Positions 32,332 to 48,775 of a stretch of DNA of 64,000 nt are shown here, piece by piece; the first letter of the stretch is position 1; each line of letters begins with the position of its first letter. The notes under the pieces are model-generated. The model ran no database searches and was not told where the DNA came from. It saw nothing but the letters and a program-made list of their open reading frames with translations. The position numbers and the translations under genes are program-made. This DNA comes from Prochlorococcus sp. AG-363-C20 (lineage in GTDB: Bacteria; Cyanobacteriota; Cyanobacteriia; PCC-6307; Cyanobiaceae). The stretch is taken from the NCBI GenBank assembly GCA_003280295.1, contig QCFI01000001.1, positions 1 to 64,000 on the forward strand, read 5' to 3'.

Positions 32332-32412
32332 AAATCCTCCCTAAATAAATACCACAAGAGCAGAAGCTTTAGTTTAGACACTACTTCTGCGGTATTTATT
32401 TAGGGAGGATTT
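32332..32412. terminator. long two-part hairpin after psaJ
   Basis: A perfect 22-bp stem joins 32332-32353 with 32391-32412. Above it, after a 6-nt one-sided bulge (32354-32359), GCAGAAG (32360-32366) pairs with CTTCTGC (32384-32390) around a 17-nt loop. Read leftward (from psaJ) the stem ends in GGATTTTTATAG, so it can act as the psaF-psaJ terminator; read rightward (from gmk) TTTCTTTT follows. Probably bidirectional. Confidence 0.7.
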
Positions 32413-43900: not shown

Positions 43901-44704
43901 ATGACCACTCCTTTTCGCAACATCACACCATCAGGGCCAGGTGGAAATGCCGCTGCTCTGCTTGTTCTTTCTTTTGCAGGCTTCATATTGCTTACAAGTT
44001 CTTTCTTTGTTGTTCCTGCTGGTCAAGTGGCCGTGGTAACGACATTAGGCAAAGTTAGTGGAGGTGCTCGTCTTCCTGGACTTAATTTCAAAATCCCTTT
44101 TATACAGTCTACTTATCCATTTAATGTTCAAACCCAGGTCAAGCCTGAGAAGTTTGAGTCTTTAACTAAAGACTTGCAGGTGATTGCGGCAACAGCAACG
44201 GTTAAATATGCTTTGAAGCCAAATGAGGCTGGGCGTGTATTTAGAACTATTTCTTATAACGATAGGGAGATTTACAATCGAATAATTAAACCTTCTCTGC
44301 TTAAAGCACTTAAATCTGTTTTCTCTAAGTATGAGTTAGTTACTATTGCTAGCTCTTGGAGTGATATCTCAGAAATAGTTGAGAAGACTGTTGCTGATGA
44401 ACTTAATAAATTTGATTATGTTCAAGTTCAAGCTCTTGATCTTACAGGGTTAGAAATTGCCGAGGAATATAGGGCTGCTATTGAGCAAAAACAAATCGCT
44501 GAACAGCAATTACTTAGGGCCCAAACAGAAGTAAAAATTGCAGAACAGGAAGCAAAGAGGTATGAAACTCTTACTAGAAGTCTTGATGACCAGGTCCTAT
44601 TTAAATTATTTCTAGACAAGTGGGATGGAAAAACACAAGTAGTACCGGCACTACCTGGTAGTAAGGGTGGAGGTACACCAGTAATTGTTGGAGGTAGAAA
44701 GTAG
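43901..44704 (+). CDS. SPFH/prohibitin-like membrane protein
   Basis: One N-terminal transmembrane helix (about 18-38), then a band-7/prohibitin domain (VPAGQVAVVTTLGKVSGGAR; LPGLNFKIPFIQSTYPFNVQ), and a C-terminal Gln/Glu/Ala-rich coiled coil (IEQKQIAEQQLLRAQTEVKI). Length is 267 aa. In cyanobacteria such proteins associate with membrane quality control and FtsH; that role here is inference. The long palindrome follows 48 nt after the stop. Confidence 0.9.
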   Translation: MTTPFRNITPSGPGGNAAALLVLSFAGFILLTSSFFVVPAGQVAVVTTLGKVSGGARLPGLNFKIPFIQSTYPFNVQTQVKPEKFESLTKDLQVIAATATVKYALKPNEAGRVFRTISYNDREIYNRIIKPSLLKALKSVFSKYELVTIASSWSDISEIVEKTVADELNKFDYVQVQALDLTGLEIAEEYRAAIEQKQIAEQQLLRAQTEVKIAEQEAKRYETLTRSLDDQVLFKLFLDKWDGKTQVVPALPGSKGGGTPVIVGGRK

Positions 44705-44751
44705 AGGATTATTGAGCTTTTTAAGAAAAGGATTGTAAACAATATCTAGTT

Positions 44752-44803
44752 ACTTATTACCTACCAAACAAAATTAATTAATTTTGTTTGGTAGGTAATA
44801 AGT
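44752..44803. repeat. perfect 52-nt palindrome
   Basis: The two 26-nt halves (44752-44777 and 44778-44803) are exact reverse complements with no loop; the centre is TTAATTAA. It lies between the convergent SPFH gene and hemL, so is a likely bidirectional transcription end. It could form a hairpin in RNA on either strand or a cruciform in DNA. There is no U-tract directly after it on either side. Confidence 0.9.
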
Positions 44804-44850
44804 TGTTAACTTGTTTATGTTGTTTTGTCCTTAACTTTTTGGTTGAATTT

Positions 44851-46158
44851 TTAGAGAATCTTTGAAATATCAGCAAAACTTTCTTGGAATGCTTTTATTG
44901 TGGTATCTATATCGTCTTCTGAGTGAGCCATTGAAGTAAACCCTGCTTCAAATGCACTTGGAGCTAGGTAAATTCCTCTTTCAAGCATTGACCGATGTAA
45001 TTTTCCAAAAAGTTCTGTGTTTGTTGCTTTTGCTTCTTCGAAATTTCTTACGGGGCCTTCACATAGGTAGAAACCAAACATTGCACTAATGCTACTTCCT
45101 GTTATTGGAAAACCTGCTTCCTTTGCTGATTGGAGGATCCCTTCAATTAATTTTTTAGTGGTTGCTTCAAGTTTTTCGTAAGTGCCTTCTTGCTGAAGTA
45201 ATTCAAGAGTTTTAATACCTGCTGTCATTGCTAGGGGATTACCACTGAGTGTCCCTGCTTGATACATGGGCCCCGCTGGGGCAACCATTGACATTATTTC
45301 AGCTCTTCCTCCATATGCTCCTACTGGTAGACCTCCTCCAATAACTTTGCCTAGAGTCGTTAGATCTGGTGTGACTCCAAATCGAGCCTGTGCGCCTCCA
45401 TAGCTGATCCTGAAACCAGTCATTACTTCATCAAAAACAAGAAGGGCACCATGTTCTTTGGTGAGCTCTCTTAGCCCTTCCAGGAATCCTGGTTCAGGGG
45501 TGATGAACCCAGCATTCCCAACAACTGGTTCAAGAATGACACCAGAAATTGCATCGGGGTTTTCCGCAAAAAGCTCTTTAACAGCTTCTAAATCGTTGTA
45601 AGGAGCAGTAAGTGTATTTTGAGTTGTACTTCGAGGTACTCCTGGTGAATCAGGTAAGCCCAGAGTAGCGACTCCAGAACCTGCTTTAACTAAAAACATA
45701 TCTGCATGTCCGTGATAACAACCTTCGAATTTGATGACCTTGTCACGCCCTGTGAAAGCTCTCATCAGGCGAAGGACTGCCATGCATGCTTCTGTTCCAC
45801 TATTAACAAATCGGACCATTTCAACGCTTGGAACAGCTTCTATAACCATTTTTGCAAGTTTGTTTTCCAACTCGCATGGGGCACCAAAACTAGTTCCTTT
45901 TTCTAAAGTCTCTTGAAGTGATGTGATCACTTCAGGGTGGGCATGTCCGCAAATTGCTGGTCCCCAGCTTCCTACATAGTCGATGTAGCGGTTCCCATCT
46001 ACATCCCATGCATATGGTCCCTTTACTCGATCAAAAACAATTGGTTGTCCACCAACAGACTTGAATGCTCTGACAGGAGAACTAACACCACCTGGCATTA
46101 GCCCCTGTGCTTCGCTGAAAATGTTTTCTGAAAGGTTGGTGTTCAAGGCGTTTGTCAC
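44851..46158 (-). CDS. hemL: glutamate-1-semialdehyde 2,1-aminomutase
   Basis: PLP enzyme making 5-aminolevulinate, the tetrapyrrole precursor. Seen: [67 protein letters not shown] and [19 protein letters not shown] (PLP Lys). I place the start at GTG 46158 ([20 protein letters not shown], 435 aa), which fits the family; the open frame extends to ATG 46188. Confidence 0.96.
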
Positions 46159-46527
46159 GGAGACTGATGCCAATGGGCTAATAAACACAGTTGGACATAT
46201 TGGCCTAAAAGAGTCAATTTCGTCTCAATTTTCTTTGGAAGTTCTAAACCTCTATTTATTTATTACTTGTTTTTGGACCCTAATATAGGTTGGTTGCTTT
46301 GCCCTAGCTTTTAGCTATACAAAGGGAATTCGGTAAATCTGGAACAGGAATCTTTTTGCTTTTGCTTGAAGGAGCTTTTGTTGACAGTGTGACGGTATTC
46401 CGATAAACGTCACACATTTCTACTATTGGTTCAATTCATAAGGGGGGATGGATTTGGTCGTAAATGGGAGATTTGTAGAAATTTCGGACTCTTGACGTTT
46501 TTTATGCAAATCCTCACACAAGTTTCA
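46159..46527. other. 369-nt spacer upstream of hemL, with an inverted repeat
   Basis: Both neighbours read leftward, so it holds the hemL promoter and the xth 3' end. GTGTGACG (46387-46394) and CGTCACAC (46408-46415) form a perfect 8-bp inverted repeat with a 13-nt gap. It may be an xth terminator stem or an operator; half-site spacing does not fit a CRP or NtcA site. Confidence 0.5.
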
Positions 46528-48742: not shown

Positions 48743-48775
48743 CAACCCCCTAACCTCTAATAGGTTAGGGGGTTG
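48743..48775. terminator. perfect 14-bp hairpin upstream of larC
   Basis: CAACCCCCTAACCT (48743-48756) pairs perfectly with AGGTTAGGGGGTTG (48762-48775) around the 5-nt loop CTAAT. It lies 53 nt after the hypothetical's stop. GC-rich and very stable, it lacks a following U-run, but its position suits an end of transcript. Confidence 0.65.

Follow-up and report, generated by a model that had tools for sequence, protein, structure and literature searches.

A perfect 52-nt palindrome between convergent SPFH and hemL genes of Prochlorococcus as a candidate bidirectional 3'-end hairpin

The window, by which we mean the whole 64-kb stretch of DNA analysed from Prochlorococcus sp. AG-363-C20, contains a perfect palindrome in the spacer between the stop codons of two convergent genes (Table 1). 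A sequence-only reading of the window had placed the palindrome between an SPFH gene and hemL, and the Pfam matches of both flanking products agree with that placement; the second match supports the class of protein only, hemL being a presumed name. Gene order on both flanks is that of the relatives, which argues against a chimeric or inverted junction at this site. A further hairpin (GTGACGGTATTCCGAT..CGTCAC, positions 46389-46413) lies upstream of hemL, between it and an adjacent gene that is likewise on the minus strand; conservation of its stem and loop extends to three other loci (L033, L034, and L073). Its 16-nt motif was not found at two or fewer mismatches in the remaining loci scanned, matched once in the window and never in 100 shuffles, and the hairpin had no match in an Rfam search; possibly it represents a regulatory RNA, or else a binding site, confined to the genus.

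Table 1. Features of the SPFH/hemL spacer region, in window coordinates
Feature	Position	Strand	Details
SPFH / Band 7 gene, 3' end facing palindrome	43901..44704	+	267 aa; PF01145 Band_7, E 6e-32
Spacer between stop codons of convergent SPFH and hemL genes	44705..44850	.	146 nt
Perfect 52-nt palindrome, two 26-nt arms	44752..44803	.	Self-reverse-complement comparison and RNA fold
Loosely U-rich stretch 3' of palindrome on SPFH transcript	44804..44833	+	18 T of 30
Class-III aminotransferase gene (hemL, presumed name), 3' end facing palindrome	44851..46188	-	445 aa; PF00202 Aminotran_3, E 3e-73

The palindrome is identical to its own reverse complement at 52/52 bases, confirming the earlier description of two exact 26-nt halves without a mismatch. 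Given the base composition, the chance expectation of a loop-less palindrome with 26-bp symmetry is about 3e-11 per 64 kb, and no perfect stem in the window is longer; the runner-up, in a co-directional spacer at 48743-48775, is a GC-rich hairpin whose 14 bp pair perfectly around a 5-nt loop. RNA of either strand is predicted to fold into a 24-bp stem closed by a 4-nt loop, placing a stable hairpin soon after the stop codon on both strands; the term "loop-less" thus describes the DNA, while at the RNA level the center is simply a self-complementary loop. The fold of the whole spacer is far more stable than that of shuffled sequences (z = -9.0 and -9.5 for the two strands). A known RNA family was considered for the palindrome and rejected, as the Rfam matches in the window were two tRNAs only, neither at this site. 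Elsewhere in the window, an imperfect inverted repeat (32332-32412; 32-nt arms, 88% complementary, 17 nt apart) occupies another convergent spacer.

The hairpin does not have the usual build of a terminator. When T runs were measured across the outermost 8 nt of the stem and the 10 nt next to it, the longest was 2 on the plus strand and 1 on the minus strand, in line with the earlier observation that neither side carries a U-tract. On the plus side, the first TTTT begins about 16 nt from the stem and no T run lies near it; the minus side is less U-rich than the plus side (14 T in 30). A terminator scan of the window did not include the palindrome among its predictions. With no U-run directly after the hairpin, we do not regard it as a canonical intrinsic terminator.

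The palindrome occurs at one place in the draft genome of AG-363-C20 (1.75 Mb, 65 contigs), so that the further copies envisaged in the sequence-only reading were not found. Among 300 family genomes, the sole match covered 32 nt at 88% identity, was chance-like, and lay at an unrelated gene end; exact 20-mers of the arm were absent from viral contigs. Near copies of the arm in 462 kb did not exceed the level for shuffled arms, and the 13-nt core had no other near match there. A repeat family or mobile palindrome was therefore rejected. The draft state of the assembly would leave room for a REP- or MITE-like element or for an assembly or amplification artefact, but the single copy, the isolated short match, the undisturbed gene order of the flanks, and the presence of comparable palindromes in a genome assembled as one contig (G003) make either explanation barely credible.

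These same searches bear on the possibility that the palindrome acts as DNA, either as a protein-binding site (for a regulator or nucleoid protein) or as a cruciform serving as a supercoil sink. Its perfect two-fold symmetry would suit such a role, and positive supercoils meet between convergent genes. Against this, related half-sites near promoters were not found: the spacer joins two 3' ends and has no promoter side, there is no second site or excess of arm copies, the symmetry is far longer than that of an operator, and among relatives it is the place that recurs and not the sequence. The protein-binding palindrome proposed from the sequence is thus not supported, and we consider a DNA-level role very improbable.

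We compared the hemL/SPFH spacer across relatives; those retrieved by the SPFH protein were Prochlorococcus single cells and isolates. Of 83 loci examined, 25 that lacked either a nearby hemL or SPFH (7 Prochlorococcus, all 17 of the Synechococcus/Cyanobium type, and L154) were dropped and 58, including the window and G003, were kept. The first 29 loci (L003-L031) share genomes with the named loci and were left unpooled except for L003 and L004; for L036 the stretch to be read was chosen by hand, and genes were called throughout by a simple, uncurated longest-ORF rule. A strong hairpin (score of at least 12) was present in 38 of the 58 spacers, with sequences unrelated between lineages; in a subset of 52 named-relative spacers of 30-400 nt, the count was 35. 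In the same loci, strong hairpins were found in 3/259 co-directional spacers, in 0/109 divergent spacers, and in 1/14 other convergent spacers, the one that passed (L036) being itself on the SPFH side.

Matched controls gave a similar picture. Within the same relatives, 9/22 SPFH spacers carried a strong hairpin, as compared with 0/15, 3/21, and 4/20 for three other convergent pairs taken from the window (7/56 when pooled; Fisher p 0.01). Convergent spacers other than hemL/SPFH also exceeded divergent ones (11/134, a total to which one G003 spacer without a hairpin contributes twice, versus 2/211; p 0.0008), and within AG-363-C20 itself, 35 of 38 convergent spacers fell below the cut-off. Taken together, the matched-pair counts indicate a sporadic occurrence of such hairpins at convergent gene ends in general and a frequent one at hemL/SPFH.

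Most of these recurrent hairpins carry the U-runs that the window palindrome lacks. T runs of at least 4 flank the hairpin on both strands in 21 of the 38, on one strand in 9, and on neither in 8, and the palindrome has the weakest U-runs of the entire set, confirming that it departs from the usual terminator build. In length it is less exceptional. The longest perfect stem at this spacer, in AG-363-B04, has 31 bp, three others have 28 or 27 bp, and that of AG-409-I11 has 26 bp, which makes the 26 bp of the window long without being unique; the sequence-only claim that its symmetry exceeds what is usual holds against ordinary terminators and less so at this particular spacer, where perfect stems of 20-31 bp recur.

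One clade, whose 24 loci all carry a hairpin, offers a view of how pairing is maintained. In 22 rows the stem is of the CCAATT/AATTGG type (the arm pair was found in 22/23 rows, L038 being dropped for want of it), and among the 15 distinct hairpins pairing is retained at 13/13 positions. Several pairs have changed on both sides, one and the same pair being T-A in some hairpins and A-T or C-G in others. None of 2000 shuffles paired as well. A MAFFT alignment misplaced four of the 5' arms, and a count by hairpin register was used in its place; because this count chooses the best-pairing motif for each sequence, and so leans towards pairing, and because the sequences are related, we take the result as support and not as a formal test. 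On this sequence evidence, the clade's hairpin appears to have been kept by paired changes and, with U-runs mostly on both strands, to be built as a bidirectional terminator would be. Compensatory changes that keep the symmetry are thus seen at this spacer in a clade distant from the window, but the window sequence itself has no alignable homologue among the same-genus spacers compared.

Among close relatives the palindrome is not conserved. The three nearest on a tree of both proteins are G003, L033, and L034. The G003 hairpin (18 bp within the spacer, 23 bp including the stop codon) has no U-tract and is unrelated in sequence to that of the window, and L033 and L034 have no strong hairpin at this spacer; these two evidently manage without one, indicating that there is no strict need for it. 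The window spacer showed no homology beyond shuffles to the same-genus spacers L004, L033, L034, and L073. Over the whole tree, hairpin presence requires at least 11 gains or losses, of which at least six are forced by well-supported branches. Near homologues thus lack the palindrome, which is half of what the sequence-only reading named as counting against it; the sequence is indeed unconserved, but the spacer is a recurrent site of hairpins.

Long exact stems are found elsewhere in the genus. G003 contains a perfect loop-less 64-nt palindrome (L140:18653-18716) between two co-directional genes, which from their sequence we take to be petH and zwf; within each of its 3' arms is a T8 run, followed by 14 more perfectly paired bases. 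The same genome has a 32-bp stem (L150:1721-1790) and a perfect loop-less 44-nt palindrome within a long predicted reading frame (L145:11611-11654), with the caveat that some stems classed as coding in the G003 table may be spacers. Loop-less examples make up 4/53 of the perfect stems of at least 14 bp, an excess that, at such small numbers, is suggestive at most. We also considered an arm motif common to the window palindrome and the long G003 stems. The likeness was equalled in 0.026 of shuffles for the window and L140 and in 0.001 for L140 and L150, figures that follow a post hoc choice of A-rich arms; the motif is weak, and no family was found.

The exactness of long stems, some of which continue past the T run in G003, hints that mutation produced them, for instance by template switching, which in Escherichia coli is reported to make quasipalindromes more perfect (PMC7202029). 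We think that the perfection of the window palindrome is probably owed to palindrome-correcting mutation of this kind. It could follow that the palindrome is nothing but a by-product, made or perfected by a template switch in a little-constrained spacer and without function here. That its sequence is private to AG-363-C20, that its exact arms exceed what termination needs, and that in G003 stems overrun the T run and a loop-less palindrome lies inside a predicted gene are all as this explanation would have it. A blind process, however, would not lead strong hairpins to shun divergent spacers and cluster at one convergent spacer, nor would it account for pair-keeping changes in one clade. We therefore regard an exclusively mutational explanation as unlikely; birth by template switching and later function are, in any case, compatible with each other.

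If the palindrome acts in RNA, the factors available to the cell become relevant. The RNA-binding domain of Rho was found in 0/40 relatives by a search that was positive in 9/14 well-known genomes used as a control, while RNase III domains were present in 38/40 and AG-363-C20 has two PF00636 matches. An RNase III site needs an uninterrupted duplex of some 20 bp or more, and the hairpin, with 24 bp, provides one. Read-through RNAs of either gene, or the duplex formed between them, might then be cut and trimmed at the palindrome. RNase III is nearly universal, so that its presence says little, and the ordinary U-run hairpins of relatives at the same place suggest stopping rather than cutting; we accordingly find cutting quite unlikely to be the main role. 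Of the functions listed in the sequence-only reading, a bidirectional terminator or an RNase III site still lead, in view of the hairpins in 38/58 spacers, the both-strand U-runs, and the pair-keeping clade.

We favor the reading, to which we assign a probability of roughly 0.6, that the palindrome is a lineage-specific bidirectional 3'-end hairpin common to both convergent mRNAs, acting in stopping transcription, in protecting the ends, or both. Its position, the preference of strong hairpins for convergent spacers, their avoidance of divergent ones, and the pair-keeping clade all fit this reading. We infer that transcripts end at the palindrome and that it is the RNA hairpin, rather than a DNA form, that acts. 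Whichever gene is transcribed, the nascent RNA would fold into the same 24-bp hairpin just past the stop codon, and this hairpin would set the 3' end by (i) helping RNA polymerase to stop and (ii) blocking 3'-5' exonucleases. Without a U-run, stopping might involve pausing and an unknown release step, or the hairpin might mainly protect ends left by a diffuse stop; the exact long arms would probably reflect template-switch (quasipalindrome-correcting) replication errors that created or maintained them. As far as its anatomy goes, the palindrome is as compatible with end protection or RNase III trimming.

A broader proposal can be made, tentatively and at odds that we place well short of even: that in Rho-less Prochlorococcus a fixed convergent site repeatedly acquires new long perfect palindromes, unrelated to one another, which template switching supplies and selection for a bidirectional gene end keeps, with or without a U-tract, that of the window being a U-tract-independent bidirectional end signal. 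By itself the palindrome is an ordinary kind of feature. If the proposal is true, the palindrome would be one candidate explanation for cyanobacterial transcript ends that have so far lacked one; the mechanism by which transcripts end in this phylum, where Rho is missing and a U-tract often is too, is treated as an open question in PMC13289151. A spacer in which strong, weak, and U-run-less hairpins replace one another across sister lineages would also provide a natural series for 3'-end features, and for the birth and loss of gene-end hairpins. The open-licence literature yielded no report of hairpins at the hemL/SPFH spacer or of long perfect gene-end palindromes in Prochlorococcus, which is weak evidence of their absence from the record.

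Several known systems invite comparison. Bidirectional intrinsic (Rho-independent) terminators of tail-to-tail genes resemble the palindrome in their convergent setting, in forming a hairpin on both strands, and in lying at the 3' end of both genes, and the relatives' hairpins at this spacer share the A-run/hairpin/T-run build described in PMC1852404; the window palindrome differs from them in having no T run on either strand, an AT-rich apex, and a 24-bp perfect stem. REP elements are similar in palindromic form and in their place between gene ends, and may protect mRNA 3' ends (PMC3733652), whereas the palindrome is single-copy and without the many copies per genome that mark such a family. 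Perfect inverted repeats are enriched just past genes in E. coli (PMC6060812) and across 118,019 genomes (PMC13155455), where they are thought to serve termination; as these sources present them, they mostly have short arms, with a bacterial preference for a 4-bp spacer, while the 4-nt loop in the window is itself palindromic. In Synechococcus elongatus, only 22% of transcription units are reported to have intrinsic-terminator-like ends; another 22% have defined ends that lack a U-tract, and strong structure is present in less than half of these (PMC13289151); by these figures, U-tract-less ends would be normal in the phylum. The palindrome shares with these defined ends a Rho-less phylum and a gene end without a U-tract, and it differs in that most of them lack strong structure, whereas the putative end in the window has an extreme hairpin.
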